From positions 62,001 to 126,000 of the forward strand of contig PBMB01000002.1 in the NCBI GenBank assembly GCA_002722455.1: a DNA stretch of 64,000 nucleotides. The letters are read 5' to 3'. The position numbers and the translations under genes are program-made. Below are positions 37,721-60,072 of this stretch, one piece after another. Origin of the DNA: Chloroflexota bacterium. Its GTDB lineage: Bacteria > Chloroflexota > Dehalococcoidia > Lucifugimonadales > GCA-2722455. The first letter of the stretch is position 1. Every line of letters starts with the position of its first letter. The notes under the pieces are model-generated. The model was given only the letters and a program-made list of their open reading frames with translations, searched no databases and was not told the DNA's origin.

Positions 37721-38284
37721 ATGTCAAGAATATCAGACTTAAAAGCTGCTTATAGCAGAATAGAAAAAAGAGAAAATAAAATAAAAGAAATAAAAGATAT
37801 TGTTCAGAAAAAAGGTGATGTTTTAAGTTTTTCTTTTTCTGGTTGGATTATAGTGGCTGTTTTATTGCTGTTTATTGATTTTTTTGTTTTATTATTAAAC
37901 AGTTTTAATTTTAAAATTGAAGATCCAACAAAAATAATATTTATAATTATTGCTTCATTATTTATATTTCCGACTTTAGCTGTTTTAAATTATGGGTTTG
38001 GAATTTTAAAAGCAGAGCTAAAAATAAAAAAAATAAATGAAGAAGATCAATTAAGAAAATCTGATTTGTCTATATCTAATGAGAACGTAGATCTGTTATT
38101 AAAGGAATTAGAAGATATGACAGACGAAGAAGTAGATGATATACCAAGTTTTATAGTAGAAGATATTATAGAAAAGAAAAAAATTAAAGAAGAAAAAATA
38201 GTAAACTCTAATTCAAATAAACTAAAAAAAGCGTCAATGAGAGAAAAAACAGAAAAATTAAATCTTGAAATAGAAAATATTTAA
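37721..38284 (+). CDS. Coil-TM-TM-coil protein, tandem paralog
   Basis: ENVDLLLKELEDMTDEE...FIVEDIIEKKKIKEEKI, similar to the next gene. Confidence 0.7.
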   Translation: MSRISDLKAAYSRIEKRENKIKEIKDIVQKKGDVLSFSFSGWIIVAVLLLFIDFFVLLLNSFNFKIEDPTKIIFIIIASLFIFPTLAVLNYGFGILKAELKIKKINEEDQLRKSDLSISNENVDLLLKELEDMTDEEVDDIPSFIVEDIIEKKKIKEEKIVNSNSNKLKKASMREKTEKLNLEIENI

Positions 38285-38302
38285 TTAAAGAGAGAATGCG
38301 AA

Positions 38303-38884
38303 ATGGAAATAAAAAAAGCAGAAAAATTATTTAAAGAACTAGAAAAAAAATCAAGAAAAATATCAAAAAGAATGGATAAAAACTCTTGTTTCAAAGAAAT
38401 AGAAAAATTTCTATTGGAAGCTTCATTTTTTTCATTTTTTATATTCTTCATTTTATTTATGGAATCAGGTACTTATTTTGAGCTTTTACCTGAATCAATG
38501 ATTTTTCTTAAATTCTTTATTTGTCTTTTTTTGACTTGTTTATTAGATTATTTGATTTTCATAAGAAGATTGTTAAAGGTAATTAAAAAGAGACAAAATT
38601 GGTGGAATAAAACAGACAAAATAAAAGAAAAAAGAGATCTAATAAAAAAAGAACTAGACGACATTATTCTTGAAAATATAGATATCTATTTTAAAGAAAT
38701 AGAAAACTTAGAAAAAGAAGATAAATTAAATTCGTTACATAATGTTCTTGTAGATGAAGTAATAAAAACAAAAAAAGAAAAACTAAGAAAATTGTCAAAA
38801 AGACAGTCGGAAATACAAGAAATATCAAATCTAGAAAAAGAAATAAATGCAATAAATAATCATTCGGTATTGGTAAATGATTAA
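38303..38884 (+). CDS. Coil-TM-TM-coil protein, tandem paralog
   Basis: ENIDIYFKEIENLEKED...VLVDEVIKTKKEKLRKL. Confidence 0.7.
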   Translation: MEIKKAEKLFKELEKKSRKISKRMDKNSCFKEIEKFLLEASFFSFFIFFILFMESGTYFELLPESMIFLKFFICLFLTCLLDYLIFIRRLLKVIKKRQNWWNKTDKIKEKRDLIKKELDDIILENIDIYFKEIENLEKEDKLNSLHNVLVDEVIKTKKEKLRKLSKRQSEIQEISNLEKEINAINNHSVLVND

Positions 38885-38888
38885 AATG

Positions 38889-38916
38889 AAAAAAGACAGT
38901 ATCAACTGTCTTTTAT
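38889..38916. terminator. Intrinsic terminator
   Basis: aaaagacagt-atca-actgtctttta. Confidence 0.7.
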
Positions 38917-39621
38917 TATTTCAAATCTTTCAATTTTCAAATTAGCATAACCTTTACGTCTTTTAAAGTTAGGCGACTTAGGGTTGGTATACATTTTAAC
39001 AAAATCTTGTGAACGTTCTTTTACAATATCGATTATACTTTCTGTAATACCACCTCTGACAAAAACAATAGCTATTGAATTATAAGCGGTGTGTTCAGTT
39101 AAGTCTTTAGTTGTCATTTTGTCGCTTTCTTCAATCTTTTCTTCATGTGATTTGATTTGATCCATAAGCTTTTGAATATTCCAACCTACTCTTGAATAAT
39201 TTTTATACAACTCAGAGTCTTCACCTTCTTCTTGATATGATTGAATAACCTTTTTATAGTTATTGATGTGTTGATTAGCATTTTTCTTTATAAAGTCTTT
39301 ATGGTGTTGGCAAGCTTTTTCTTTTCCATATTTGTCATCTACATGATAATGGTAGCCTAAACCATTATTTACATAATTATGGTTTGAGCATAAGATAAAA
39401 GGTGTTAAAATGTTTTCACTTTCGTCAATGATATGTTTAATGCTGTCTTTAAACATTGAGTAATCATATTCATAAACCTCATGTTCTGCTTTAAATCCAG
39501 ATTCAGACTCATCGGTGTGACTAGTAATGAAAGAGACCATTTCTCTTGAAAAGTGACCAGCATAAGAGTTCGTATGGATAACAATTAACTCATAATCTTT
39601 TGTTTCTCTATGATGAAGCAT
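38902..39621 (-). CDS. Hypothetical soluble protein
   Basis: ATG 39621 preceded by aggagg; track start 39693 is less likely. Confidence 0.65.
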   Translation of the reverse strand: MLHHRETKDYELIVIHTNSYAGHFSREMVSFITSHTDESESGFKAEHEVYEYDYSMFKDSIKHIIDESENILTPFILCSNHNYVNNGLGYHYHVDDKYGKEKACQHHKDFIKKNANQHINNYKKVIQSYQEEGEDSELYKNYSRVGWNIQKLMDQIKSHEEKIEESDKMTTKDLTEHTAYNSIAIVFVRGGITESIIDIVKERSQDFVKMYTNPKSPNFKRRKGYANLKIERFEIIKDS

Positions 39622-39689
39622 ATACTTTAATGTTCCTCCTGTTCGTTTCAGTATTATATATAAAAAATCATAAAAATTCAAGTTTTTTA

Positions 39690-40214
39690 TCATACGTCAA
39701 TGGCGATATCAAATACCTTGTTAATATAAAATGGACAATTATCTTTTTTATTATAAATAACTTTTGCATAGTGTGCTCTTAGTCTTTCAATATAATGATT
39801 GCCACAAGAATTGCCAATAATAACATCAGGAGAGCCGAAAGAAACTTTTGTTTCGTGTGTAATAAGATTATTAACTAGATGAGATTCAACAATTTCTCCT
39901 TTATCATTTATATAATTAAAAACTAAAAGGTTAATACAACGTTCAGTATTGAGATCTTCTTTTACATTTTTATAAATTTGAGATTGAGAATGATTATCTG
40001 AATATTCTTTAATATATATTACTTTAAGACAATCTTCACCATTAATAATTGTTGAAACCATTTGTTCAGAAGTGATTTCATTTTTTTTGATTTCACTTTT
40101 AATATATCGATCAACAATCCAACCTTCTATATTAAATAAAAAATAATGCAGTGACAAAAGTGATAAGATCAACACTCCTAAAATAATGAATATGGTTTTT
40201 AAAAATTTAATCAT
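39690..40214 (-). CDS. Membrane-anchored two-Cys module protein, putative immunity
   Basis: N-terminal TM; NGEDCLKVIYI...NTERCINLLVFNY. Confidence 0.65.
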   Translation of the reverse strand: MIKFLKTIFIILGVLILSLLSLHYFLFNIEGWIVDRYIKSEIKKNEITSEQMVSTIINGEDCLKVIYIKEYSDNHSQSQIYKNVKEDLNTERCINLLVFNYINDKGEIVESHLVNNLITHETKVSFGSPDVIIGNSCGNHYIERLRAHYAKVIYNKKDNCPFYINKVFDIAIDV

Positions 40215-40217: not shown

Positions 40218-40532
40218 TTATCTTTGTTTTTTTAAATAACAAATCTTCTCATTATAAGATTCGTCTAGGTAAAAATAAAAGAAATAATCCTCTGCAATAA
40301 TAATATTAGTCATATCATTTTTTATAGGAATATCACAATGTCCTATATTAATATTTAAATTTTTTTCAATTTCTCTTTTGTTCTCAATAAAGACTTCTTC
40401 TTTTTTATCTTCATATTCTATTTTTATTTTTGGGTAAATAAAATTATTCAAATACAAAATCCCTAAAATAAATAATACGAAAAAAGTAAGAATAGAAGTC
40501 AATAGGATTATCGATATATTAATTTTATTCAT
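40218..40532 (-). CDS. Membrane-anchored two-Cys small protein, putative immunity
   Basis: N-terminal TM; GHCDIP...NEKICYLKKQR; overlaps upstream gene by 8 nt. Confidence 0.65.
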   Translation of the reverse strand: MNKINISIILLTSILTFFVLFILGILYLNNFIYPKIKIEYEDKKEEVFIENKREIEKNLNINIGHCDIPIKNDMTNIIIAEDYFFYFYLDESYNEKICYLKKQR

Positions 40533-40800
40533 TAATTTGCCTCCTGCAAATAATAATTTTTTTATTTATTTTGTCTTTTTCCATATAATAATTTTTTATA
40601 ACATTCTTGTTTTTTTTTGTTTTACAATTTAAAATTCCATAATAAAGACCTTCATACTTTTGTGATATTTCAATATTTAAAATATCTTTAAAACCTTGTG
40701 GGTAAGGATTTATATTAGTAAGAAATGAAAGATAAAAAACAATGTATAAAACAAAACCAATAACTACGCCAAAAAAAACATTTTTCATATATTTACTCAC
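40525..40800 (-). CDS. Membrane-anchored two-Cys small protein, best candidate cognate immunity
   Basis: N-terminal TM; LNCKTKKN...IIICRRQ; start overlaps 3' end of the rhs ORF by 8 nt. Confidence 0.65.
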   Translation of the reverse strand: MSKYMKNVFFGVVIGFVLYIVFYLSFLTNINPYPQGFKDILNIEISQKYEGLYYGILNCKTKKNKNVIKNYYMEKDKINKKIIICRRQINE

Positions 40801-43800
40801 AACTACAATTTATATATTTATAATATTTTGGTTTTTCAGAACCAACAACAGTACTTTCATACGCTTTATGATCACTAAATCGAACTCCCATAGTAGATGC
40901 AGAAATAGTTTTTTCTTGGTCTACAACTAAACCAATATGACCAGATGAATATTCATCCCCCGATTTGACAATCAAATCTCCAGCACTAGATTCAGATTTT
41001 TTTATTTCTTTAAAATATTTGGAAATATTACTATTGCTTTTATAAAAAGCATTAGCTCCAAAAACTTTATAAGAGTCACGTGACGGCATTTCAAATCCAT
41101 TCTGTCGATATAAATAATCAACAAAGATATTGCATTTATTAATACCAGAAAAATGATGATCAGTGCTGTCATATATATAAGGTCTTATAGTATTTAAAAT
41201 CCCACCATACCTAAAAAAATCCATTCCTTTAAAACCGATTTTATCATACTTTCCCCATCTCCAACTTTCATTTATATTATTTTTCTTTTCTTTAATATAA
41301 TGTTCTTTATAAGCAGATTTTAAAACCTTTTGACCTACATTTTTGCAAGAGCATAATCCTTTGGTATCTATATAGTTTATATGGTTGTTATTTACATAAA
41401 TATATGGATTAGAGCCATCATATAACTTTAATGGATCAATTTGAAGATACCTTTTTAATTTATGAGAATAATCTCTATTATAATTATAATACAACCCTGT
41501 CACCTCGTCTTTATATTGACCTAAATACATAACAAAACTATTGTTTGTGTTGTTTTCAAAGCCATAATCAAAATATTCAATATTTCCATTCATATCCGTA
41601 GTAGCTTTAATTGTGTTTTCTGACGAATAATGATTAAAATATAACTGTCCTTTATAATTATAACCTATAATTTGCCAATTTAAATAGATAAATGATTTAA
41701 ATTCACCATTTATTTCTTCTTCAATCATTTTTCCTTCATTGTCATAGTAAAAATATTTCACAATATCATGAAGTGGATAAACAGCTTTTGCTCTTTCACC
41801 TTTAAGATTGTAACTATATTTAGCAATCAATTGATTGTCTTTGTTAAATACTTCTAATATTTCATTCCTATCTCCATAAACAATAGTCATGTCATCAATT
41901 AAAATCATATTTCCTGATATATCATAATCAGCTAATTCTGAATCTATTTGATTGCTATTCTTCTTATATTTATACTTATCACCAAAGAAAGAAGTTTTTA
42001 TATTGCCATTCTCATCGAATTTTCTTTTATATTCAATTTTGGTTTTTTCTTTTTTATCTTCGATTAACTTTTCTTCTATTTTATTTATTTTTTCTAATTG
42101 ATTCTTTTTGTCATACATAAATCTATAATCAAAAACATTATCTTCATTTGAGTATTTTATGTTTTTGATTCGACCTTTTTCAATAAGAACTTTTTCTTCA
42201 AATAAGCCGTTGTGTTCATTAGTTAAAAGATTTAAATGGTCAAAAGATTTAGAAACTTTAATACCATTACCATATTCAAATGAATGATAGTCATTACCAC
42301 CATTAAAAACAAGATCTTTAATAACAATAGAATCATTAAATGAAATATCGGTAAGAACGTTATTTTCATCAAATATATATTGCACTGTATTGCCAGAAGG
42401 ATAGGTTAATTTATCTTTCTCAGCTTTAAATGTAGATTCTTTTCCATCAAATTTGTTTATTTGCTCATAATAAAGTTTATTATTGTTGATAGTTAATGAG
42501 TCATTGTTTTTTGAAATTTTAAGTTTATTCTTATCAGGATAAGAATAAATAGTGTCAGGTTGTCCTTCTTTTTCTATGCGAATAATCTTCTCACCGTCAT
42601 AATATCTTTTTTCTTTAATTCCATTTCGGTTAATCGTAACAACTGAATCTGTTTTAAGATATTCTTCTTCTCCATATTCTTTTGATTCAAAATAAATACG
42701 ATTTTCTGTTTTTGATTCTTTGTACTTAACTTTATTTGTGGTTGTAATAGTTGTAAGATCTTTGTCGTATTCATATGTAAATATTTTTTTATTTCCGACT
42801 TTTATATAATCAGGTTTATTGTCAGAATTAATAAAGACCTCAGAAGCAACATGATTCATTTTGTATTTATGTAAAATACCATTTTTTTTGTTTTTTTGTG
42901 AATGAAAGTAATCAGCTTCATTTTTAGACTTAACACTTGATACATTGCCATCTTCATATGAAAAAGTCTTATCTTCAATAATTTGGTCTTTATAATATAC
43001 TTTAATCTGTTCAATATTATTATCAGGTTGATAAAAATATTCTTCTTTATAATCGTTATGTAATTTTGTCTTTAAATGATTCCAAGCATCAAAGTTCTGT
43101 GTTATGATCTGAGTTTCTTTTGTTGCTTTGTCATATTCTTTTATTTCTAATTGATTACCTTCAGCATCAAGAGTAAACTCTACTTTAACATTATCGTTTT
43201 CAATAAGTGTATTATATCCTAATGAGTTGAAGTCATAAAAAGTGACATCTTCATTAAAACTAACTTTTTTAGGTTGATTGAATTCATTGTAATTTTCATA
43301 TATAGTTTTTTCTACGAGAGAATCGTCTTCAAATTTTTTATATTCTTTTAAATTGCCGTCTTGATGATATGCATACTCTTCAATCAAACTGTCATTTATA
43401 AATAATTTTTTAATTTGATTCTGTTTATTGAATTCATTTAGAATAGTGCCACTTAGTTCTTCTCCTTTAAATACCTCTATTTTATAAAGAATTAAACCAT
43501 CATAATGATAAACCATTTTATTGTCATTTATAGAGATCGACTTTTCAAGATAATAACCATATTGATTGTTATTTGTATATTCAATAGTAGTAAGCTCTTT
43601 TGTTTTTTTATTTAGAATACTTGTAGGTAAATTGCTTCCATAGCCTTCTTCTTTCAAATATTCATATTTAAAAGAAGTTGTCTCTTTTTTAGACTTTATT
43701 TCATTATCATTCTTTTTATAAAAAACACCATCTTTTATTTCATATTTATTTGTATGATAAGGAGTTTTTACTGTTCTCAATTCTTTGTTGCCTTTTATTT

Positions 43801-45121
43801 GATAATGTATCTTAGTAATATCAAAATCACCATGTCTAGATTCTGTCACTTGTGCAAGATCATTATACTCCCAAGAAGCAAAAGGCTGTCCATTTTTATT
43901 AGTCCTTCCTGACAATAAAAGATCTGTGTACTCATAACTTGTATTATTGCCGTTAATGTCAGAAAAACCATTTAGAAGATATGAATCGAACTCATATTCT
44001 CCACTTTTTACATTATAATCTTCAAAGTGGTAAGTTATTTCTTTTTTATCAGGAGTAGTGATTTTGGTGATTTTATTGTTTTCTCTGTGAATAGTATAAA
44101 ATCCATTTTTTAAGTTTATTTTGGAAACAACGTTATTGGTGTATAAAAAATTAGCTTTTTCTTCATAAAAATCTGAAATAGACTTTAATAAACCATTTTT
44201 ATTAAACTTATAAATCATGTCTTTTAAAATAACGATATATTCACTATCTTTATTGATAAATAAAGATCTTGGAAATGATTTTATTTGTTGATTTTCAATT
44301 TTATAAGTTTCGCCACCTTGAATTAAAGAAAATACGTTATTTTTGTCTTTTTCAATTTTTGTTTCAAAATTAAATGCCCAACCAGCTCCGATACCAGTAT
44401 TAACATACCTTAGTTTAGACTGATAAACACGAACAATTGGAAAGTCAGGATGTGGATAATCAACACTTGTTTCTATTTTATTACCAGTAATGACATCGCA
44501 AGGGTTTCCTTCACAAGTAAGAAAATCTTCGGGGAAAACTTTTGAAAGAGAAGCGTCTATTTTTCTATTTCGCTCAATTTTAACAACATAATCCTTGATT
44601 ATCGGTTTTATTGCCATTTTCTTTATTTTAATACGGTTTGGTTTTCCATTTTTATTTTTTTTACATTTCTGAATTGAAAAATATGCAAATTTTTCATCAA
44701 AAGAATCAACTTTAATAGAAGAAGATTCCTCACCTCTACATTCTTTTTCATTTGCATAAACGAGTTCTCTTTGAGAAAGACCTTCTTTTTTAATTAAATT
44801 TTCTCCAGAAACGATACTTCGAGAGACACAAGTTCTTATACCACCGCCTAATGCAGCAGCACACAAATGAAAGCTATTTGAACTAGAATATTTGTAATAT
44901 TTTCCACTTTTTGACCATTCACCTTTCATTTCATTTTTTTTATCGGTAGGACGATACTTGGATAGTATTTCTTCATTAGTCATATCTGAGTAAACAGGTA
45001 TAACAATTTTACTTTCTTTATTTCCTTGTTCGAAGGTGGTGACAGTAGCAACTAACTCTTTGGCGGTTATGTTTTGCGAAATTAGTATCATCAATGTAAA
45101 AAAAACAGTTCTAAAAAACAT
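40793..45121 (-). CDS. Sec-signal Rhs/YD-repeat protein with C-terminal NlpC/P60-like peptidase domain
   Basis: Signal peptide MFFRTVFFTLMILISQNITAKE; DUF6531-like NPCDVITGNKIETSVDYPHPDFPIVRVYQS; Rhs core VTGLYYNYNRDYSHKLKRYLQIDPLKLYDGSNPYIYVNNNHINYIDTKGL; C-terminal NKCNIFVDYLYR...AGDLIVKSG...SGHIGLVVD. Confidence 0.85.
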   Translation of the reverse strand: MFFRTVFFTLMILISQNITAKELVATVTTFEQGNKESKIVIPVYSDMTNEEILSKYRPTDKKNEMKGEWSKSGKYYKYSSSNSFHLCAAALGGGIRTCVSRSIVSGENLIKKEGLSQRELVYANEKECRGEESSSIKVDSFDEKFAYFSIQKCKKNKNGKPNRIKIKKMAIKPIIKDYVVKIERNRKIDASLSKVFPEDFLTCEGNPCDVITGNKIETSVDYPHPDFPIVRVYQSKLRYVNTGIGAGWAFNFETKIEKDKNNVFSLIQGGETYKIENQQIKSFPRSLFINKDSEYIVILKDMIYKFNKNGLLKSISDFYEEKANFLYTNNVVSKINLKNGFYTIHRENNKITKITTPDKKEITYHFEDYNVKSGEYEFDSYLLNGFSDINGNNTSYEYTDLLLSGRTNKNGQPFASWEYNDLAQVTESRHGDFDITKIHYQIKGNKELRTVKTPYHTNKYEIKDGVFYKKNDNEIKSKKETTSFKYEYLKEEGYGSNLPTSILNKKTKELTTIEYTNNNQYGYYLEKSISINDNKMVYHYDGLILYKIEVFKGEELSGTILNEFNKQNQIKKLFINDSLIEEYAYHQDGNLKEYKKFEDDSLVEKTIYENYNEFNQPKKVSFNEDVTFYDFNSLGYNTLIENDNVKVEFTLDAEGNQLEIKEYDKATKETQIITQNFDAWNHLKTKLHNDYKEEYFYQPDNNIEQIKVYYKDQIIEDKTFSYEDGNVSSVKSKNEADYFHSQKNKKNGILHKYKMNHVASEVFINSDNKPDYIKVGNKKIFTYEYDKDLTTITTTNKVKYKESKTENRIYFESKEYGEEEYLKTDSVVTINRNGIKEKRYYDGEKIIRIEKEGQPDTIYSYPDKNKLKISKNNDSLTINNNKLYYEQINKFDGKESTFKAEKDKLTYPSGNTVQYIFDENNVLTDISFNDSIVIKDLVFNGGNDYHSFEYGNGIKVSKSFDHLNLLTNEHNGLFEEKVLIEKGRIKNIKYSNEDNVFDYRFMYDKKNQLEKINKIEEKLIEDKKEKTKIEYKRKFDENGNIKTSFFGDKYKYKKNSNQIDSELADYDISGNMILIDDMTIVYGDRNEILEVFNKDNQLIAKYSYNLKGERAKAVYPLHDIVKYFYYDNEGKMIEEEINGEFKSFIYLNWQIIGYNYKGQLYFNHYSSENTIKATTDMNGNIEYFDYGFENNTNNSFVMYLGQYKDEVTGLYYNYNRDYSHKLKRYLQIDPLKLYDGSNPYIYVNNNHINYIDTKGLCSCKNVGQKVLKSAYKEHYIKEKKNNINESWRWGKYDKIGFKGMDFFRYGGILNTIRPYIYDSTDHHFSGINKCNIFVDYLYRQNGFEMPSRDSYKVFGANAFYKSNSNISKYFKEIKKSESSAGDLIVKSGDEYSSGHIGLVVDQEKTISASTMGVRFSDHKAYESTVVGSEKPKYYKYINCSCE

Positions 45122-45216
45122 ATTATCCCTCTATATCCAAATATCGGGAGAAAGTAACATATACAAAATAATAAATCAATTGTTTTATGTGTTTTTCATA
45201 TAATTACATTAATTTT

Positions 45217-45642
45217 CTAATCAATAAATTCTTGTGCATAAAAAAACCCGTCTCCTGAGAAATAAACAGGGAGTCCTCTTAAATGATCATACTTTTTATT
45301 TTTAAATTGTCCTTTGTAGTATATAAAATCTTCATTGTTGTAATAATCTAAAACATAAATAAAAACACATTTTTCTTCAAATATATTTTCATTAAAAAGG
45401 TGAAATCTAGTGTCAGGGAAGAATAAAACTTTTTCACAATTACTATCACCATATGTTTTAAAATCATACAATATTTCTTTCTGAGTGAATTTTTTATATT
45501 TCTTATATAAAATATTACTTTCAAGGTAGAGGTCTTGGAGATAATAATAATTTTTGAGACCACTATCCAAATGTGGATTGTTAATTTTTAACAAAGAAAT
45601 AAAAAATATAACAATCAAAATGTTTCTTATATTTAATCCCAT
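45217..45642 (-). CDS. Membrane-anchored two-Cys module protein, putative immunity
   Basis: N-terminal hydrophobic anchor; GDSNCEKVLFF...FEEKCVFIYVLDYY. Confidence 0.65.
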   Translation of the reverse strand: MGLNIRNILIVIFFISLLKINNPHLDSGLKNYYYLQDLYLESNILYKKYKKFTQKEILYDFKTYGDSNCEKVLFFPDTRFHLFNENIFEEKCVFIYVLDYYNNEDFIYYKGQFKNKKYDHLRGLPVYFSGDGFFYAQEFID

Positions 45643-46337
45643 TCTTCCTCCTCATAAGATTTTTTTTCATTATAAAAAACATAATAGTTTTTAGTTTTTG
45701 ATAAAGAATTTATGTTTATATAACGATATCTAGTCAAATCAAATATGAATTGATTGGCAAATGCTTTGTTATCATTAAAATAAACAATATTAAAACCTTT
45801 ATTATCAAAAAAATCCATATCTAAGAATATTTTTTCAAAATATAACTCTTTTACAAGATTATCTTTATCTTTTTTATTTATTACAATAACATTGATGTTA
45901 ATACACTTTTCGTTTTTATATAAATCATTTAAGTTGTCATAAATATTGTCTATATTTGAGATAAAGACTAAAAAATTTTCACAATCAATATCTTTTTTAT
46001 TTTGCAAAGAATAATAATCTAAGCTTTCATCAAGTGGTAATGTTTTATCAGATAAGTTTTTATCATTAAAATTGAATATTTGAATAACTTCATCGTTTTT
46101 TGTTAAAAACCTTGATCTTGGAGTAGAAACACTATCAACGAGGTCAATTAATACAAAACAGAAACAGGCAAAAATAAGTAAGTAATGTGATTTCTTTTTG
46201 TTCTCAGTTGATAAGTCAATTTTTGAATAAAGAATAAATGGACTAAAAACAAGAAACAAAAAAGGCTCTTGTAAATATAAAGACAACCATAATAGTAACA
46301 TAAAATAAGTAGCTTTTAATTTTTCAATTGTATTCAT
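45633..46337 (-). CDS. Membrane-anchored two-Cys module protein, putative immunity
   Basis: TM segments; KDIDCENFLVFI...KNEKCININVIVIN; overlaps next gene by 10 nt. Confidence 0.65.
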   Translation of the reverse strand: MNTIEKLKATYFMLLLWLSLYLQEPFLFLVFSPFILYSKIDLSTENKKKSHYLLIFACFCFVLIDLVDSVSTPRSRFLTKNDEVIQIFNFNDKNLSDKTLPLDESLDYYSLQNKKDIDCENFLVFISNIDNIYDNLNDLYKNEKCININVIVINKKDKDNLVKELYFEKIFLDMDFFDNKGFNIVYFNDNKAFANQFIFDLTRYRYININSLSKTKNYYVFYNEKKSYEEEEWD

Positions 46338-46351
46338 TTAAACTTTCCTTG

Positions 46352-46567
46352 TTATTTTTCACTTATATGTTCGTTCTTTTTAATCGTATATAGGACTTCA
46401 TGTTTTGTTAAATCAATTTCTTCACTTGCAATTTTTTTAATTACCATTTCCTCTAATACAGAACCACCAAACAAAGTAATGAAAGCAAGAGGAATACAAG
46501 CCAAACACTTTAAATAAAAAAATCCTACCTGATGTTCTTTATATATCGCTGTTATCTTTTTGAACAT
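46352..46567 (-). CDS. Hypothetical small membrane protein
   Basis: 71-aa ORF overlapping 46552-46827. Confidence 0.5.
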   Translation of the reverse strand: MFKKITAIYKEHQVGFFYLKCLACIPLAFITLFGGSVLEEMVIKKIASEEIDLTKHEVLYTIKKNEHISEK

Positions 46568-46827
46568 GTAAATACCTCCTTGTTTTTTAAATATGAATAA
46601 TATTCAATAGTTTCTGTCTTATAGAAAAGATTAAGTTCCTCTTTTATATTATTACAATAATGGTTTTCAATTTCTTTTGGTTGATTAATTACAGATAAAA
46701 TATAAGAGTGTTCTTCGTTCTCAAATAGTCGAGAAAGATTATTTCCAAATTTAAAATTGCTAAGTGGATCAAAATAGAAAAAACCAAAAGAAAAAAGTAT
46801 AAAAAGTGAGAAGTTTTTTTTGCTCAT
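46552..46827 (-). CDS. Membrane-anchored two-Cys small protein
   Basis: N-terminal TM; NHYCNNIK...EVFTCSKR. Confidence 0.6.
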   Translation of the reverse strand: MSKKNFSLFILFSFGFFYFDPLSNFKFGNNLSRLFENEEHSYILSVINQPKEIENHYCNNIKEELNLFYKTETIEYYSYLKNKEVFTCSKR

Positions 46828-47090
46828 AAAACGTCTCCTTTACATAAGATGACTTTATTATTGTATTCACCTAAAAAGAACCCCTCTTTAAATTCCTTTC
46901 TGTATTTAGTTTGCTTACAATGTCTTATATCTTTTTCAACATAATAAGTTCTATGTACTTGAAGTTCTTTTGAAGCTTTTTCGACAAGGTATTCTGTATT
47001 CGTGTTTTTATAGAGAAGAAATAGAGCTGAAAAAACAGAATAAAAGAAAGCTGCATTTATAAAACATTTAATCACATCGTTTTTATTCAA
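46824..47090 (-). CDS. Membrane-anchored two-Cys small protein
   Basis: N-terminal TM; RHCKQT...VILCKGD; 4-nt overlap with downstream gene. Confidence 0.6.
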   Translation of the reverse strand: MNKNDVIKCFINAAFFYSVFSALFLLYKNTNTEYLVEKASKELQVHRTYYVEKDIRHCKQTKYRKEFKEGFFLGEYNNKVILCKGDVL

Positions 47091-47145
47091 AATAAACTCC
47101 TAAGAAACAAAGTAAAAAGAAGTTTTTCTGAATAATTATTTTAGT

Positions 47146-47313
47146 TTATTTTTTATCGCCAAAGCCCTTTATACTTTTTTTAATATATTTAAATATAAAC
47201 ATAACACATAAAACTGCCAAAACAATAGCAATAGCATAAAGCCAATGTTCTGCTTTTGAATTTAAAAGACTATCTATCATAATCTCTGTATCTCTGTTTT
47301 TAAGATGATCCAT
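47146..47313 (-). CDS. Possible 55-aa tail-anchored protein
   Basis: MDHLKNRDTEIMIDSLLNSKAEHWLYAIAIVLAVLCVMFIFKYIKKSIKGFGDKK; below ORF-track cutoff. Confidence 0.5.
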   Translation of the reverse strand: MDHLKNRDTEIMIDSLLNSKAEHWLYAIAIVLAVLCVMFIFKYIKKSIKGFGDKK

Positions 47314-47324
47314 TTTATTACCTT

Positions 47325-47618
47325 TTATTTTTGATTATAAAATATTTTAATATAACCGTCTTGATTTTCTTCTTTGTTCTTGTCTAGATAACAACCAATA
47401 GTAGATTTGATTTCATTAAAAGGAATGTAGGCTAATGATTTATTATCATTAAAATATTCTTTATTCGTTTTTTCTTGAATATTGTAGCAAAGAACTGAAT
47501 AATGAGAAACAAATGACTTTGCTTTTTCTAAAATATAAACTTCATTACCTTCAATAGTTCCTTTTGAAAATAAAGCTTTCTCAGTTCTAAATAAGCTATC
47601 AGTGTCTTTCTTGGGCAA
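47325..47618 (-). CDS. Hypothetical small two-Cys protein (non-ATG start)
   Basis: SVLCYNIQ...IGCYLDKN; likely coupled to upstream gene. Confidence 0.5.
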   Translation of the reverse strand: MPKKDTDSLFRTEKALFSKGTIEGNEVYILEKAKSFVSHYSVLCYNIQEKTNKEYFNDNKSLAYIPFNEIKSTIGCYLDKNKEENQDGYIKIFYNQK

Positions 47619-47632
47619 AGCAACTAATTCTT

Positions 47633-47869
47633 CTATATTTTTTCCAATAATAAGTATTTTTGTTCATTAGAATCTTTGATCATTGACATAAGAGAGCCAA
47701 TCATTAATACGGGAATACCGATAATAGCAGCAAAAGTAATTAGTGTATCCATAAACCCACGAGCGGAAGGGGTATTTTTTGGATCGGCTTTTATGTTTGT
47801 CTTCGTATTGAAATTTGATAACGCTTCTTTATTTTCTTGAATAGACTCTTTTAAATTCTTATCTGACAT
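47633..47869 (-). CDS. Small tail-anchored protein
   Basis: MSDKNLKESIQENKEALSNFNTKTN resembles N-terminus of the 52301-52501 protein; C-terminal TM. Confidence 0.6.
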   Translation of the reverse strand: MSDKNLKESIQENKEALSNFNTKTNIKADPKNTPSARGFMDTLITFAAIIGIPVLMIGSLMSMIKDSNEQKYLLLEKI

Positions 47870-48034: not shown

Positions 48035-48427
48035 ATGAAAAAATATTACAGACTGATCGAAAGTGATTCAAACAATGAAGGTAGACAATTTCATATGTTT
48101 ATTGAAATGCCAGAAACAAAAGAAGAAATCAAGTTGTTTGACTCATTTAAAGGATTGGTAGATAAGTTATCTTACTTAAACTATGAAGAAGAATATGGAG
48201 AGGAAGAAATTGATAAAAGTAGATTTAATTTCGCCTTAAATCCAGAAACAGATCAGTTAATGATATTTGAAAGCTATATCGCAGATATATTAATAGAAGA
48301 TCAAGAGTATTCAAATAATGTGCATTCAAAAAACAAAATAGATAATCTGATTCTTAATTTCAAAGAAACAAACATTCAAGAGATTCAATCAGCTATGGAA
48401 TGTGGAATTTTTTTAGATCATGCTTAA
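48035..48427 (+). CDS. Hypothetical acidic protein
   Basis: ORF overlapping rhombosortase-like gene by 8 nt. Confidence 0.65.
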   Translation: MKKYYRLIESDSNNEGRQFHMFIEMPETKEEIKLFDSFKGLVDKLSYLNYEEEYGEEEIDKSRFNFALNPETDQLMIFESYIADILIEDQEYSNNVHSKNKIDNLILNFKETNIQEIQSAMECGIFLDHA

Positions 48428-48971
48428 AAAAAACAAAACATTAATATTTATAATATTGCTATCAATTTTAGGACAAATACCTGTCGTAAAAGAATGGTTT
48501 ATTTGGGATTTGAATCTAATCAAATCAGGAGAAGTGTGGAGAATTGTAACTTCAACATTCACACATACAAATCTAAATCATTTAGTAATGAACCTAACTG
48601 CAGTTGTTTTATGTTTCGCTGCATTTGGTAAAGAGAAGGCAAATATAGGATTTGTATTATACAGTTCTTTTTTAGTAGGCATAGTATTGTGCTTTCTTCC
48701 AGAATATAAAGATATGACCTATGCAGGTTTATCTGGAATGATACATGGGCTTGTTGTTGTTATGGCTTCAAATTTAAAGAAGCCGTGGTTTATTTTAACA
48801 ACATTCTTGATTGTTCTAAAAGTCATCTTTGATACAATTTATGGCTCCCCAACGTCTTCGGAATTGATTAATGCAAAGGTAGCTTATGAAAGTCATATAA
48901 TAGGTCTAATATCAGGTCTTTCTTATTTATTAGTGTTTAATACAAAAGAGAAGAAAATGTCTTTAAAATAA
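48420..48971 (+). CDS. Rhomboid-family intramembrane protease, rhombosortase-like
   Basis: GEVWRIVTSTFTHTNLNHLVMNL; YAGLSGMIHGL; ESHIIGLISGL. Confidence 0.8.
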   Translation: MLKKNKTLIFIILLSILGQIPVVKEWFIWDLNLIKSGEVWRIVTSTFTHTNLNHLVMNLTAVVLCFAAFGKEKANIGFVLYSSFLVGIVLCFLPEYKDMTYAGLSGMIHGLVVVMASNLKKPWFILTTFLIVLKVIFDTIYGSPTSSELINAKVAYESHIIGLISGLSYLLVFNTKEKKMSLK

Positions 48972-49046: not shown

Positions 49047-50024
49047 TTGGAAAATCTAAAAGAAGAAAAAGAAAACATCCTTTATGTTTTTAATAAAATA
49101 TGTAGTCTAAAAAAAATAGAGCCACACAATCCAGCAGAATCAGAGATTGAAAATGTTATGAATCTTAAAATAGATACATATCTGGAAGAAGAAAAGAACC
49201 ACGATGAAAAAGTAGATTTCATTTCAAGATTACTGAATATAAAAATAAAATCGAAAAATTCAAGTGACACAAAATTATTAAAATCAAAATCACAACCTAG
49301 TAAAAACTTCTTTTACAATGATGCTTCTGATATGATCGTTACTCACCTTTTAAAAAATAAAAAATTATTAGTTCCTTTTTTTGAAGATAACTTGGATTTG
49401 TTTTATGAATTAGTAATGACTTCAACAATGAATATATTTAATTATCGTCCGAAAATAGGAAACATTAAAAACAAAGAAAAATTAATGCAAAAAAGTTATG
49501 AAAAAGTATTTGAAAAAGCACTAAATAAAAAGAAAGAGATAGATATAAACGAAGAAAAAGTAATAGGTTCTTTTTTCATACTAAATGTAAAAAAGCATAA
49601 AATATATGAAACTTTCTTAAATAAGACAAAAAACAAAGAAGAAACAAGAAAACAAATAAAAGAACTATTCTTTACAGCGACAGACAATGAGTATAATTGG
49701 CTGAGAGAAGAAAAAGAAAATGATATGGATGTAAAAGAAAAGTTGTTTTACTATCTTTTTGCAATACCATTTTCCATAATAGTGCTTCCTATGTTATTAC
49801 TTTATACAATAAAATATTTAGTAGATTCAGAACTGGCTAAAAGAGAGTCAGAGAGAGTGACAGAGACAGAAATAGACTATTACAATTACTTATTAAAAGT
49901 AGACGGTTCTGATATATCCTTGCTTCCTTCCCTATTAGAGCACAGAATAAAAAACCCTTCTGCTTTTTGTGAAGAAGGGTGTTTGTTGGAACCAGATTTG
50001 TTTGAATTAGTTTACAAAATTTAA
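49047..50024 (+). CDS. Hypothetical protein, family M1 (copy 1 of duplicated module)
   Basis: TTG start with SD gagg; C-terminal IDYYNYLLKVDGSD...LLEHRIKNPSAFCEEGCLLEPDLFELVYKI. Confidence 0.7.
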   Translation: MENLKEEKENILYVFNKICSLKKIEPHNPAESEIENVMNLKIDTYLEEEKNHDEKVDFISRLLNIKIKSKNSSDTKLLKSKSQPSKNFFYNDASDMIVTHLLKNKKLLVPFFEDNLDLFYELVMTSTMNIFNYRPKIGNIKNKEKLMQKSYEKVFEKALNKKKEIDINEEKVIGSFFILNVKKHKIYETFLNKTKNKEETRKQIKELFFTATDNEYNWLREEKENDMDVKEKLFYYLFAIPFSIIVLPMLLLYTIKYLVDSELAKRESERVTETEIDYYNYLLKVDGSDISLLPSLLEHRIKNPSAFCEEGCLLEPDLFELVYKI

Positions 50025-50614
50025 TGTAGACTCTTGAGAGACAAATCAAAAAGGAAGTCTTCTGATATGTCTTCCTTTTTATTTAATACAATTTTTCTAA
50101 TTTTATATTTATCAAAGAAAGAGATATTCTCAATTAAAATATCATCGCTATCTGATAATAGAATATCATATTTTATAGAATTATTATTTTTATCTAAAAC
50201 ATCAATATTAACGAATTCCAATGAAAAATCTTTCTGGATAAACTTGGAACCTAATAAGACATTTTTATTTTTTATGTTAATTTCAATTCTAAATTTTGAA
50301 TTAGAATAAAACAACTTTGGCACTAAATATTCTTTTTTATCTTTTGTTATGAAACCATGTTTTTTCAAAAACAAGGTCTTATTCATAAAACCACTTGAAA
50401 ATAAAAAACAAGAGAAGAAAAAAGTACCATACAAGAAAATAGATATACAAATAAAGGCTGGTAAAAGGATTGAATCACCAGAAACATTAAGTTCTTTAAT
50501 TTTTATAATATTTAAGTAAAACGGATATATTAAAGATATGTTTAATATAAAAGAAGCTGGTAAGGAAAATTGAGATATTGAAAATAAAGTCTCATTAATA
50601 GTGTTTTTACTCAT
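50021..50614 (-). CDS. Hypothetical four-TM protein, family M2 (copy 1)
   Basis: NIDVLDKNNNSIKYDI...FFDKYKIRKIVLNK; convergent with M1. Confidence 0.65.
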   Translation of the reverse strand: MSKNTINETLFSISQFSLPASFILNISLIYPFYLNIIKIKELNVSGDSILLPAFICISIFLYGTFFFSCFLFSSGFMNKTLFLKKHGFITKDKKEYLVPKLFYSNSKFRIEINIKNKNVLLGSKFIQKDFSLEFVNIDVLDKNNNSIKYDILLSDSDDILIENISFFDKYKIRKIVLNKKEDISEDFLFDLSLKSLH

Positions 50615-50736
50615 TGATTACTCCACATTTTAAGGTGATTATATCATTTATTTAAAAGAAAAACAAAGCCTATATTTAAATTGACAAAAAAGATAAATGA
50701 ATTATTCTATAAAATAGTTTATTTTAAGGATTTAAA

Positions 50737-51660
50737 ATGAGTAATTTACAAAAAGAAAAAGAAGATTTGCTTTTTGTTTTTAAAAAAGTATGTGAGACAA
50801 CAAAAAAATTAAATTGTCGTGAAGAAAGAGCTTTTGATTGGGAGTTGTCTAATAGAATAGTTTTATATTTAAAAAAAGAAACAAATGAAGTTGAGAGAAA
50901 TTATTTTTTGAGAAAATTGTTTGAATTGGAATTATCAGCATATGAATATAGAATAAACAAAAAAATCCAAGAAGGCACTTTGGATTATCACCACAATGAT
51001 AAACCACTATCACACAATATAATAATAAATAAAATATTTAAAAAAAGCAAAAAAGAATTAAAAGTATTTTTTAAATCGGATAGAGATTTCTTTTTAAATT
51101 TAATGTTTTCAATATCTAGGAATTCAATAGAAAGAACAGAATCAAATTTCTGCGTTAAAATGTTTAACAAAGAAATGAAAAAAGAAAAGGTAATAAATAT
51201 AAAAGAAAGAGTTTTGGGAACATTTTTTATATCTGAAATATTAAATAATGAATCGAATGGTCGAAAATATTATTTAAAATTAACGGAAGAAACAAAAACT
51301 ATATTAAACAAAAGTATACAATATCTATCAAAAGATCCATTCTTTAAAAGACTTGTCAGGGAAAAAATGAAATTCACTGATTGGTATTTATATCCGTTAG
51401 GCTTTATCATGATGATCTTTGTTTTACCTTTTATAATACCAATAGGTGTAGTAATTGAGATATTAAATAGAGGAGACGAAAGAGAAAAAGATAAAGGTTA
51501 TAATAAGATTGTTGATTATTATGATTATTTATTAAAAGAAGGTTCTGAGCATAAATTGATAGAATTTCTTTTAGATTATAGATTAAAAAATCCCGAATCT
51601 TTTTCGAATGAAGGAAAATTATTAGACTCAGAATTGTTTGAGTTAATGTATAAAAAATAA
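50737..51660 (+). CDS. Hypothetical protein, family M1 (copy 2)
   Basis: MSNLQKEKEDLLFVFKKVC...VDYYDYLLKEGSEHKLIEFLLDYRLKNPESFSNEGKLLDSELFELMYKK. Confidence 0.7.
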   Translation: MSNLQKEKEDLLFVFKKVCETTKKLNCREERAFDWELSNRIVLYLKKETNEVERNYFLRKLFELELSAYEYRINKKIQEGTLDYHHNDKPLSHNIIINKIFKKSKKELKVFFKSDRDFFLNLMFSISRNSIERTESNFCVKMFNKEMKKEKVINIKERVLGTFFISEILNNESNGRKYYLKLTEETKTILNKSIQYLSKDPFFKRLVREKMKFTDWYLYPLGFIMMIFVLPFIIPIGVVIEILNRGDEREKDKGYNKIVDYYDYLLKEGSEHKLIEFLLDYRLKNPESFSNEGKLLDSELFELMYKK

Positions 51661-51683
51661 AGCCATTTGGCTTTATTTTTTTA
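51655..51683. terminator. Intrinsic terminator
   Basis: aaataaagcca-ttt-ggctttatttttt. Confidence 0.65.
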
Positions 51684-52233
51684 ATAATTGTAATAATTAG
51701 AAGTAACTATTTGGCAATCAAATAAGTATTCTTTTTCTGTCTTAGAAGTGATTGCTATTTTTTTAATTCTGAATCTATCTGTAAAAGATTTTGGTTTTAA
51801 AAATAATTGAGTGCTTTTAATGGTTATATTAGAAGGTATTTCTTTATTATTTTTGTCTAATATTTTAAAATCAATATCCCCACGATTAATATATCTTGTG
51901 TATTTATCTGTTATTACATTTAATTTAATATAATAATAAAATTGTAAAAAAGAAGGTGTTTTATAATCGACTTCTTTTTTTTCAATAATTCCATATTTCC
52001 CTATAATAACATTATTGACACTGAAAAAACTGATTCCTGCGCCAAGCAAAGAAAGCATAAAAAATGTAAAATAAATAAAGACAAGTATGGTGTGATAGAA
52101 CTCAACTAAATTTTGTTTGCTAAAAAAAAAGATAAACAGTGTCTTTTAATAATACTCCGAATACAAAAGTTAATATAGCAGAGAAGATAAAGAAACTTTC
52201 TTTTATCGCTGAATATATATTATTATTTTCCAT
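51681..52233 (-). pseudogene. Family M2 (copy 2), frameshifted at a T9/A9 tract
   Basis: MENNNIYSAIKESFFIFSAILTFVFGVLLKDTVYLFF* then, in the next frame, SKQNLVEFYHTILVFIYFTFFMLSLLGAGISFFS...GDIDFKILDKNNKEIPSNI...FTDRFRIKKIAIT. Confidence 0.65.
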
Positions 52234-54232: not shown

Positions 54233-55219
54233 TTATGAATTACGTATCTCAATTTCAGGGATAACATGGTGTTTTTTTAATATATTTTCCATTTCATCAA
54301 TTGCATTTTCCTTTCTTGCTTCTTCACGTTTTTTTCTATCATAATCATAAAATATAGATTCTAATAGTATAAATTCTTTTTCCGTTGTTTCTTCTTTTTT
54401 AGCATACTCATAGAGTTTTTGCATCTTTTTTTCATCTGATATTATCTTTTTTATATCTGACTCTGATTCTTTATTTAATAATTCACGTTTTTCTTTCATG
54501 TGCTCAAAATCTTCTTTTTTAAAACTAAGATTTGAAAACTCTTTGTTTTTTTCATAAAAAGTTTGTTTTTTATTATGTATAACAAGAGAATTAACAGCTA
54601 TTACAAAAAGAGACGCAATAGAATAAACTTTGGAGTCAATAATCAAATTCGATATCAATAAAGAATCTGAAAACATAATAATCAAAGTTGTAATAAAAAA
54701 TATCCCACCAAAAATATAAAAGAAAGAAGCAATTAAAATATCCAAAATAACTTCATAAGATTGACAAAAATATTTATACCCTCTTATAAAAAAATTAAAC
54801 CCTAATACAATGCAACTAATAGCATATAAAAAGAATCCAATATTTATTTGATAAGTGTATAACCCAAGCTCTTTGATTTTTCCATAAATATCAGAAACGC
54901 TACTAGTATCGGTTAATGCTATGGAACTGGCATAGTTAATAGATTCAGAAAAGCTCAATGAATGAGTAGCAAAGGTAGAATCCCAACGAGCATTATTAGC
55001 AGCTTCATATTCTGCTGCAATGCTATTTATATTATCGATTAAAAAATAAGGAATAATATTAAAAATAACTAAAAAAGACAAAAACACACAAAATGTAATC
55101 ATTAAAAGCTTATTGTTTTTATGGTAAGGTTGTATCCTATTATAAGTTTTTTCACTAGCAAAAATCATATATCTCAGTTCTTCTTCTATCTTTATCTTTT
55201 CTAATAGATTTTTAATCAT
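54233..55219 (-). CDS. Coil-TM-coil membrane protein, subfamily B
   Basis: Four TMs; KKMQKLYEYAKKEETTEKEFILLESIFYDYDRKKREEARKE. Confidence 0.7.
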   Translation of the reverse strand: MIKNLLEKIKIEEELRYMIFASEKTYNRIQPYHKNNKLLMITFCVFLSFLVIFNIIPYFLIDNINSIAAEYEAANNARWDSTFATHSLSFSESINYASSIALTDTSSVSDIYGKIKELGLYTYQINIGFFLYAISCIVLGFNFFIRGYKYFCQSYEVILDILIASFFYIFGGIFFITTLIIMFSDSLLISNLIIDSKVYSIASLFVIAVNSLVIHNKKQTFYEKNKEFSNLSFKKEDFEHMKEKRELLNKESESDIKKIISDEKKMQKLYEYAKKEETTEKEFILLESIFYDYDRKKREEARKENAIDEMENILKKHHVIPEIEIRNS

Positions 55220-55230
55220 TTTGACACCTT

Positions 55231-55365
55231 TTAAAATTTATATTGTTCTGAATTACAGGATTGCTTCCAAGTCTCTGCTTTAACAAAATTAAAGGTCTCT
55301 GCAAAAAGCATTGAGTTATGGGGTTTTCTCTTTTTTCTAATTTCCAATTTCGTCACCAAAATCAT
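55231..55365 (-). CDS. Possible 44-aa small protein MILVTKLEIRKKRKPHNSMLFAETFNFVKAETWKQSCNSEQYKF
   Basis: ATGA overlap with upstream 31-aa ORF; below ORF-track cutoff. Confidence 0.4.
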   Translation of the reverse strand: MILVTKLEIRKKRKPHNSMLFAETFNFVKAETWKQSCNSEQYKF

Positions 55366-55457
55366 ATAAAACCATAGTTTAAAAAACTAATAGTTGCTTT
55401 ATCGTATTGTTTTTTTATTTCGATATTATGATTTTTTAATTTTTGATAAAGTTCCAT
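55362..55457 (-). CDS. Possible 31-aa small protein MELYQKLKNHNIEIKKQYDKATISFLNYGFI
   Basis: TAATG overlap with upstream 144-aa ORF. Confidence 0.4.
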   Translation of the reverse strand: MELYQKLKNHNIEIKKQYDKATISFLNYGFI

Positions 55458-55891
55458 TAAAAAACCTTTTTATTGGCACGATTGTAAAATTTTCGGGCTT
55501 CTTTAAGTACCAGTAATAATATTTTTGAAGCTTCATATTGTATGCTTTCAATATTGTAATCTTGGTGTTGTTCTTCCAAACCTTCAAATTTAGTGGTAAC
55601 TTTAGCTTTAAACTTTATATTTGGGTCACGACTTTCTATCATGAAGTGCGGCTGTTCATCAGTTTCCAGATATGTAGTTAAGTGTAAGTTTAAAAATTTT
55701 TCTAAAGAAATATAGTAAACATTTCCAAACTGATGCCCTTTAATAGTCACACCTTCTTCTTGAACAGAAACATAGCTGTTAAAAAGGTATGCGAAAGATT
55801 TTTCAAAATTATAACTTTTAATAATAAATTCATCTTTTGTTCTCTCTATGCTTATTCCGAAAAGGTCATTGAGTTTTTTCTCGTTAATCAT
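55457..55891 (-). CDS. Hypothetical protein
   Basis: 144-aa ORF. Confidence 0.65.
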   Translation of the reverse strand: MINEKKLNDLFGISIERTKDEFIIKSYNFEKSFAYLFNSYVSVQEEGVTIKGHQFGNVYYISLEKFLNLHLTTYLETDEQPHFMIESRDPNIKFKAKVTTKFEGLEEQHQDYNIESIQYEASKILLLVLKEARKFYNRANKKVF

Positions 55892-56037
55892 AAAGCCCTC
55901 TTTAAAAATTAGTAGCCTATTATACCATTTACAATATCTATTTTCAATTCATTTCGTATTAAAATATTTAAAGTTTGACAATAAAAAAATGTAAGGTATT
56001 TTTTAATAGACTTTAATAAAAAATTAAGGATAAATAA

Positions 56038-56622
56038 ATGAAAAAAACACTATTATTATTAACAATGTTGAGTGCAAGCACTGTCTTTGCTGGTCAAACT
56101 TTAACTCCCGTAGAAAAAAAGGTTAATGAGGCGATAAATGAAATCCCTTTTTCATATGATGTAGAAAAAACTCATCCTATGAAGGCGAAGGGATTAGAAT
56201 TTGAAGCAAGAAAACCAGTGTATTACAAAAGACAAGAAGTGACTCTTGAATACAATCCTGAAAAAACAAGATTTGAAGAAGTTAGTATGTACTATATTTT
56301 AAAAGCAGAAGATTTAAAATATTTTTGTAAAGATATGTCAAAAGAAGTCAATTTAAAAGAAGAAAATGCTTTAAATGCTGTTTGTTTGTCAAATATATTA
56401 TTACAAAATAAGTTTAAAAAGATAAAAGGAAGTGAAATTGAAAATGTAATAGGTATTCAATCTTATAAAGTAAGAGAAATCTGTCAGGATATATTAAAAA
56501 ACACGCTAAGAAGTCAAGTGTTTTTAATAAAAGGAGATAGAGAAAATACAAATGTAGATTCAAGTCTTTTTTCAGAATGTGTAGAATCAATTACAGAGTT
56601 AGATACATTTTTTAAACAATAA
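56038..56622 (+). CDS. Secreted/periplasmic hypothetical protein
   Basis: Signal peptide MKKTLLLLTMLSASTVFAGQ; terminator downstream. Confidence 0.75.
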   Translation: MKKTLLLLTMLSASTVFAGQTLTPVEKKVNEAINEIPFSYDVEKTHPMKAKGLEFEARKPVYYKRQEVTLEYNPEKTRFEEVSMYYILKAEDLKYFCKDMSKEVNLKEENALNAVCLSNILLQNKFKKIKGSEIENVIGIQSYKVREICQDILKNTLRSQVFLIKGDRENTNVDSSLFSECVESITELDTFFKQ

Positions 56623-56650
56623 AAAAGAGCCATTCAAGGCTCTTTTTTTA
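56621..56650 (+). terminator. Intrinsic terminator
   Basis: aaaaaagagcc-attcaa-ggctctttttt. Confidence 0.8.
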
Positions 56651-56700
56651 TCTGTATCTATTTTTGAATTATATATATAAAAACAAAATTAATAGAAAAA

Positions 56701-57654
56701 TTACATATTAATCAATTCATTTTCATTTTTAAAAGTTTTTGACAAAAAGTTTTCAACTCTTTCTTTCTCTGTTTCATTGTCTATCTGATTCTTTTTAAAT
56801 AGATTTAAAACATCTTCGACAGCTTTGTTTTCTGAATAATTTAATGTATTCAATTTTTCATAATTATTATATTTCAAATCAAACAGAGCTTCCATAGTGT
56901 TTTTATCGCTAACAAGCTCTTTTTCAATAAAGTCTCTTTCATTTTTTAAGATTTCAATTTTTTTAATATATTTAGCAGCAAGACCTTTAGTTTTATCTTC
57001 TTTATAAAAAATGGTTTTGAATGAAAAAATTTGTTTTCTAGTTACATTATCAAATCTAGTACAAAGTTTAAATAAGAGATAAAGACCAGAAAGAACAAAA
57101 ATAGTTGCTGAAATAACTAAACTACCTATAAAGTTATTAAAACTTCCACTAATATAATTTATAACAATGCTTGTTATAAAAGCACCTAAGAAAATAGGTA
57201 AAAAAGAAGTCATAAAAGTTCTATTTTCTTTTTTGTTTTCAAAAACTTTTTGTTTTAAATAAGTATTAATATTGATAGCCATTAATATATGAATTGGAAC
57301 ACTTAACAGTAATATATAATAAGTATATTCTGGCAAAAATGTTAAATCTAATGAAGCGTGTATCCTAGATAAATTTAATAATTGAAAAATGTTAAAACTA
57401 GGATCAATTCCCAAAGAAGGTATTAAATTCTTAGATTGTTCTATAATAAATGGTGCTGATATATACTTATACATAGTGGATAAGAATAGAAAGGCAATAG
57501 CGTTTATGAACAAAACGGTTTTTGCTTTGTAGATTCCAATATAATGCTGTGGATTTGGATTTTTAGAATTATTACTTTCTTTTGCCCTTTCCATTTTTTT
57601 TATAATTCTTCTAATTTTCAAATATTTATCAAATTTTTCATTAATCATTTTCAA
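56701..57654 (-). CDS. Coil-TM-coil membrane protein, subfamily B
   Basis: Four TMs; LVSDKNTMEALFDLKYNNYEKLN...; 14-nt overlap with upstream paralog. Confidence 0.7.
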   Translation of the reverse strand: MKMINEKFDKYLKIRRIIKKMERAKESNNSKNPNPQHYIGIYKAKTVLFINAIAFLFLSTMYKYISAPFIIEQSKNLIPSLGIDPSFNIFQLLNLSRIHASLDLTFLPEYTYYILLLSVPIHILMAININTYLKQKVFENKKENRTFMTSFLPIFLGAFITSIVINYISGSFNNFIGSLVISATIFVLSGLYLLFKLCTRFDNVTRKQIFSFKTIFYKEDKTKGLAAKYIKKIEILKNERDFIEKELVSDKNTMEALFDLKYNNYEKLNTLNYSENKAVEDVLNLFKKNQIDNETEKERVENFLSKTFKNENELINM

Positions 57655-58543
57655 TCACCACACTTTTAAAATTTACGTCAATTAGTTCTTTATAATATTC
57701 TTTTTTATATTCTTTTTTAAATTTATTTTCAAAATCCTTAATTAAATTATCAAGATGTTTTTTTGATTCTTCATCTTCCATACCATACCTTAATTCAACA
57801 GCTTTTGTTAGTTCTTTTTGATCGAGAAATATTTTACTTTTAATGTTTTCAATTTTTTCTTTATTTGTATTGTTTTCTTCTTGCAAAGCATTCAAGTTAT
57901 TATTTAAATCCTTAGAGTTTTTTTTGTAAGAAAATATATTACCTTTAAAAAAATCAATGATAAAAGACATAGGTTTTAAATCATTATATTTTAAATGCCT
58001 ATGCGTATAATAAAGAAGCAGGATTCCTCCGAAAAAAGCAAAGACACCAAGTATAAAAAAAGCAGCCATAGAAAAAATAAAAAAGACAAGTGTAAAAATA
58101 TTTATAATAAGAGAATTGGCAAGAAAAAGAATTAAAACAGTTAATATAAAAAAGAATAAAGTTGTTTTCTTTTTTAGATTGACAATGCTTAAAAACATAG
58201 ACAAATAAAAAGAAATAACAAATATAAGAAAATAACTTTTATAGATAATGGCAGAAGTCGAAAATAGCCCTTGAGATAATTGTTGTTCTGTAAATTCGAA
58301 TTTAGGGAAGACTTCAAAATCTATTGTAACAATTGAGCTTTGAAGAGAACTTAAAAAGACCTCATTTAAAACAGGACTTAATAAATAAACAGCAGAGTAT
58401 GCAAATGCAAAAACAATAGAGACGATGAAAGTATTAAAAATCTCATGATTTTCTTTTAAACAATGTTGTTCGTAGCGGTTTTCAGAAATTAATTCTTCAC
58501 ATTCTTTATTTTTTTTGCATTCTTTTAAATATTCTTCAATCAA
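57641..58543 (-). CDS. Coil-TM-coil membrane protein, subfamily B
   Basis: Four TMs; IFLDQKELTKAVELRYGMEDEES... Confidence 0.7.
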   Translation of the reverse strand: MIEEYLKECKKNKECEELISENRYEQHCLKENHEIFNTFIVSIVFAFAYSAVYLLSPVLNEVFLSSLQSSIVTIDFEVFPKFEFTEQQLSQGLFSTSAIIYKSYFLIFVISFYLSMFLSIVNLKKKTTLFFFILTVLILFLANSLIINIFTLVFFIFSMAAFFILGVFAFFGGILLLYYTHRHLKYNDLKPMSFIIDFFKGNIFSYKKNSKDLNNNLNALQEENNTNKEKIENIKSKIFLDQKELTKAVELRYGMEDEESKKHLDNLIKDFENKFKKEYKKEYYKELIDVNFKSVVIEND

Positions 58544-58608
58544 AATAAAATCCTTAATATTAGCTCAATATGTGATTATACTAAAATGAGGATCTTAAAT
58601 CAACAAAA

Positions 58609-60063: not shown

Positions 60064-60072
60064 GGTGATATT

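Follow-up and report, generated by a model that had tools for sequence, protein, structure and literature searches.

A predicted Sec-exported Rhs protein with an NlpC/P60-type tip, encoded in a run of small genes, several for membrane proteins

Introduction

Rhs toxins with an NlpC/P60 domain at the C-terminus (Tox-NLPC/P60) were included in the polymorphic toxin catalogue of 2012 (PMC3482391). They are built of Rhs repeats, the core and a C-terminal peptidase predicted to degrade cell walls, and were assigned to T6SS, PVC or TcdB/TcaC export. The catalogue names no immunity partner or immunity family for NlpC/P60 tips. The same work described polyimmunity loci, in which several small co-directional genes follow each other with short gaps near a toxin system; these loci hold recognised immunity families and are never interrupted by toxin genes (PMC3482391). 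The Rhs autoprotease has an aspartyl dyad and a PxxxxDPxGL consensus at the cleavage site (PMC8765631).

Here we describe an Rhs locus in a window of 64,000 nucleotides, by which the whole stretch of DNA analysed is meant. The locus has the Rhs repeats, core and predicted peptidase of the Tox-NLPC/P60 toxins and differs from them by a Sec signal peptide and by the small membrane proteins encoded alongside.

Results

Origin of the window

The bin containing the window (G000, 30 contigs) proved to be chimeric. Tetranucleotide clustering of stretches from all contigs separated two composition groups: a low-GC group of approximately 1.23 Mb (25-32% GC) consisting of C1, C2 (the contig of the window), C11, C12, C15, C19, C21, C22 and C25, and a second group of approximately 1.25 Mb, mostly with 33-38% GC. 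The sole 16S match of the bin was on C7, which belongs to the second group and not to that of the window. The window-encoded AsnB is 72.7% identical to AsnB of Aeromonas caviae, and the window-encoded CcmE, AsnB and rhombosortase matched their NCBIfam models over the cut-offs. DsbB, MutS and type IV pilus genes are also present in the composition group of the window; the best PDB matches of this MutS were to what we take to be the E. coli protein. Judged from these sequences, the window contig is gammaproteobacterial with low GC, whereas the bin itself is placed in another lineage.

The assigned order is mostly devoid of NlpC/P60 and of penicillin-binding transpeptidases, and its Rhs loci sit on DNA of 53-67% GC with flanks of the other lineage. 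Because the bin is chimeric, genomes of the assigned order and class represent the wrong clade for the window. For the same reason the absence of transpeptidases is not assignable to the window's host, of which perhaps only a part is present; the idea of a host lacking peptidoglycan, and hence needing no immunity, was dropped once the bin proved chimeric. The taxonomy of the assembly misleads any comparison of the Rhs locus with the listed relatives and should not be used for the window.

Some other features of the surroundings were recorded. The rhombosortase gene (48420-48971, TIGR03902, over cut-off) implies GlyGly-CTERM protein sorting in the window's organism. At 49047-50614 and 50737-52058, next to the small genes described below, a convergent gene pair occurs twice side by side, the duplication being evident from the similarity of 49047 to 50737 (E about 1e-25) and of 50021 to 51681 (E about 1e-8). 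Many orphan proteins of approximately 140-330 aa with two to four transmembrane (TM) segments, several of them with charged, coiled-coil-like ends, are encoded at 54233-63426, 37721-38884 and L018 10561-11373. Some of these adjoin the two Rhs loci of the composition group, and for most of them neither a family nor a paralog match was obtained at the threshold used.

The Rhs protein and its C-terminal tip

The open reading frames had been located in an earlier note on this DNA, and all coordinates given there were confirmed. The Rhs gene and its tip-coding part are:

40793..45121, minus strand: Rhs protein, 1442 aa, with signal peptide, N-terminal Cys-containing region, DUF6531, YD-repeat region and Rhs-associated core
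40796..41350, minus strand: Rhs tip, residues 1258-1442, NlpC/P60-type Cys/His hydrolase predicted by profile and alignment

The N-terminus (MFFRTVFFTLMILISQNITA/KE) was judged by eye to be a Sec-type signal peptide. Six Cys are found within the first 210 residues. Profile searches placed DUF6531 at residues 205-263 and the Rhs-associated core (TIGR03696) at residues 1183-1256 with E 1e-15. As in Rhs polymorphic toxins, the core is followed by a variable C-terminal toxin domain, which here starts at residue 1258. Both Asp of the autoprotease are kept (D1229 and D1252), and the cleavage signature reads HxxxxDTKGL, in contrast to the consensus cited above.

A search of genome contigs with the full Rhs protein gave no homologue. 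A second Rhs gene of the same composition group (L018 11870-16591) encodes a protein with a signal peptide and a different tip. In a high-GC genome (G039:C1:722000-790000, L021-L024), a long Rhs-like ORF precedes a series of tandem ORFs of approximately 470-520 aa with more than 20 matches to the Rhs core, and those that were read each encode an N-terminal hydrophobic segment, the end of an Rhs core and a variable tip. Mini-Rhs genes are here arrayed as tandem cassettes.

In the whole protein, NlpC/P60 matched residues 1328-1419 with E 2.1e-6 and 28.1 bits, the Pfam cut-off being 23. When searched alone, the tip gave E 6.1e-8 and 33 bits against the same cut-off, and NlpC/P60 was its only family match. 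In peptidases of this family the catalytic Cys and His are joined by a third polar residue, which is His, Asn or Gln. In an alignment with E. coli MepS, NlpC, MepH and YafL (15-25% identity), Cys1330 and His1395 correspond to the catalytic Cys and His, and the tip retains the GDL motif of the E. coli enzymes. The tip differs from them by its fusion to Rhs, by having KCNIF for DCSGF, and in the third catalytic position, where Ser1407 stands in place of the His of MepS and NlpC, the Gln of MepH and the Glu of YafL. A Sec-exported Rhs protein with an NlpC/P60 tip, as proposed in the earlier note, is thus supported by the profile searches and the catalytic-residue alignment, although with an unusual third residue.

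A papain-fold tip whose target is not peptidoglycan (protease, deamidase or transglutaminase-like), with the small proteins of the locus serving assembly or export of Rhs, would also suit Ser1407 and the atypical KCNIF context. Toxin systems of this sort commonly include papain-like tips directed at other targets (PMC3482391). This explanation appears quite improbable to us, as the sole family match, over cut-off, was to NlpC/P60 and neither the Cys-His dyad nor the GDL motif has been lost.

The AlphaFold2 model of the tip, run without relatives, had a pLDDT of 29 and was too poor for a fold search. Homologues of the tip were not detected in plasmids, viral contigs or 250 genomes of the assigned order, and a tip joined with several small proteins was not detected in 393 genomes of the class, a search whose query was lossy on its own genome. 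The lack of relatives in the order and the class says little, since the bin is chimeric and these genomes are of the wrong clade. A scan of viral contigs for the NKCNxFV codon pattern gave one candidate with similar Cys/His context (L197) and nothing closer.

The gene run around the Rhs gene

The Rhs gene is part of a co-directional run, all on the minus strand, extending from 47869 down to 38902 and containing about a dozen small genes. Single numbers in the text denote genes by their first coordinate.

47633..47869, minus strand: first gene of the run, encoding 78 aa with one TM segment near the C-terminus and no Cys
47325..47618, minus strand: 97-aa protein, two Cys 32 apart, no TM segment as called
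47146..47313, minus strand: 55-aa TM ORF, missed in the earlier note
46824..47090, minus strand: 88-aa TM protein with an exported Cys pair 25 apart
46552..46827, minus strand: 91-aa protein with a weakly hydrophobic N-terminal segment and two Cys 30 apart
46352..46567, minus strand: short, perhaps truncated TM protein of 71 aa, lacking an exported Cys pair
45633..46337, minus strand: two-TM protein, 234 aa, exported Cys pair 26 apart
45217..45642, minus strand: 141-aa TM protein with two Cys 23 apart
40525..40800, minus strand: candidate cognate immunity protein, 91 aa, N-terminal TM segment, two Cys 26 apart
40218..40532, minus strand: small TM protein of 104 aa with two Cys 32 apart, a candidate for an immunity or accessory role
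39690..40214, minus strand: TM protein, 174 aa, four Cys, aligned Cys pair in common with 45217 and 45633
38902..39693, minus strand: last gene of the run, for a 263-aa protein without TM segment that is a remote relative of Bacillus phage G gp332
38891..38914, no strand: terminator-like palindrome closing the run, where it meets the convergent gene 38303

Most intergenic gaps in the run are between -16 and +14 nt. Larger ones are found before the Rhs gene (95 nt) and between 47325 and 46824 (234 nt, holding the 55-aa ORF). Every small ORF shows G enrichment at codon position 1, an argument for these ORFs being coding. The 8-nt overlap between Rhs and 40525-40800, reported previously, depends on a GTG start of the latter; if translation starts at the ATG four codons in (40788), the product has 87 aa and is separated from Rhs by a 4-nt gap. 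The product of 38902-39693 matched phrog_23621 (E 1e-12) and Bacillus phage G gp332 (25% identity, E 1e-8). The genes 47633 (TM segment, no Cys) and 47325 (two Cys, no TM segment), which lie in different frames with 14 nt between them, may represent a single gene divided by a frameshift.

Two-cysteine pattern and relatedness of the small proteins

A TM segment combined with exactly two Cys, 20-35 residues apart and located after the last TM segment, was found in 5 of the 11 array genes (40218, 40525, 45217, 45633 and 46824) and in 0 of the 35 other small ORFs of the window. The Fisher p value of 3e-4 is a guide only, because it was calculated once the pattern was already known and the TM segments were called by a simple hydropathy scan. 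The earlier description of two-Cys membrane proteins on both sides of the toxin gene therefore holds for these five genes but not for 39690 (four Cys), 46352 (no exported Cys pair), 47633 (no Cys), or 46552 and 47325 (no TM segment at the threshold used).

A module common to 39690, 45217 and 45633 had also been proposed. Alignment of the three proteins does bring a Cys pair into register, but for the better pairs about 2% of shuffles attain the same score. Pairwise similarity among the small proteins was in general near chance, the scores of the best pairs being reached in 1-2% of shuffles with 45 pairs compared. The shared module and the kinship of the better pairs are, at the level of sequence, only suggestive. 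Searches of the small membrane proteins against Pfam, NCBIfam and PHROGs gave no match above cut-off and no immunity family; sub-threshold profile matches (ComGE, SA1362, STEEP1, GMIP-like FCH) were discarded. The bin contains no second copy of any of them. The AlphaFold2 model of 45217, run with two neighbours, reached a pLDDT of 44 and was too poor for a fold search.

In its small co-directional genes, short gaps and proximity to a toxin, the run resembles polyimmunity loci. It was not classed as one, because the toxin gene lies inside the run and interrupts it (rule of PMC3482391); moreover, the members match no known family and their kinship is near chance.

It is a reasonable, though tentative, alternative that only 40525-40800, perhaps with 40218-40532, encodes immunity and that the rest are unrelated orphan membrane proteins sharing a variable island, the two-Cys pattern being common among small periplasm-facing proteins. 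The adjacent 48-64 kb encode many other orphan membrane proteins and no Rhs, which, like the near-chance kinship, favours this alternative. So does the second Rhs gene, which is followed by a single 69-aa membrane protein; this fits one toxin with one partner, and an array is not needed. The enrichment of paired Cys within the run and its absence elsewhere in the window, together with the very tight gene packing on both sides of the toxin gene, point the other way. Accumulation of orphan membrane genes at this place is the simpler view than an orphan-immunity array.

The earlier proposal that the two-sided array consists of immunity and orphan-immunity paralogs could not be established: there was no family match, kinship was near chance and no displaced toxin tips were present. 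It is further weakened by the rule for polyimmunity loci (PMC3482391) and by the Rhs-free neighbouring orphan membrane proteins. It seems unlikely to us that the two-sided array around the one Rhs gene consists of a single family of homologous periplasmic immunity proteins, membrane-anchored and disulfide-stapled, that covers many wall-directed Rhs tips.

Discussion

The best reading of the sequence is that the Rhs protein is a predicted Sec-exported polymorphic toxin of a known kind; the array reading is unproven. With moderate confidence we interpret the locus as a polymorphic-toxin operon of a gammaproteobacterium, comprising an Rhs protein exported by Sec, a wall-cutting tip, 40525-40800 as immunity gene and other genes that are partly orphan immunity genes. 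The Rhs protein would be exported via the Sec pathway and its YD repeats would form a cocoon, from which the tip would be released through self-cleavage by the aspartyl autoprotease of the core. Having arrived in the periplasm of a neighbouring cell, the predicted papain-fold tip would cut the peptidoglycan of that cell. Protection from wall-cutting toxins has to take place outside the inner membrane. The product of 40525-40800 may be such an antidote, small and anchored in the inner membrane, whose periplasmic and probably disulfide-stapled domain would protect the producer and its kin. Its position, its coupling to the toxin gene and its topology make it a plausible, indeed the likely, cognate immunity protein. 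The remaining small genes are possible orphan immunity genes, at least in part, or unrelated orphan membrane genes.

The toxin-operon interpretation is supported by the core and NlpC/P60 matches above cut-offs, the aligned Cys, His and GDL and the two kept Asp residues. The direct coupling of 40525 to the toxin gene in a one-directional, short-gap run with a terminator-like end, the enrichment of TM segments with paired Cys, and DsbB in the same composition group argue in the same direction, and NlpC/P60 toxin tips are already described (PMC3482391). Against it stand Ser as third catalytic residue, the deviating cleavage signature, the lack of an immunity-family match and of convincing kinship among the small proteins, and the uninformative AlphaFold models. 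That no delivery route beyond Sec was identified also counts against it; the bin yielded no T6SS sheath gene, although this carries little weight, as the window's organism is incompletely represented there. If 40525-40800 and its neighbours provide immunity to wall-cutting toxins, they would constitute a new, easily tested immunity family.
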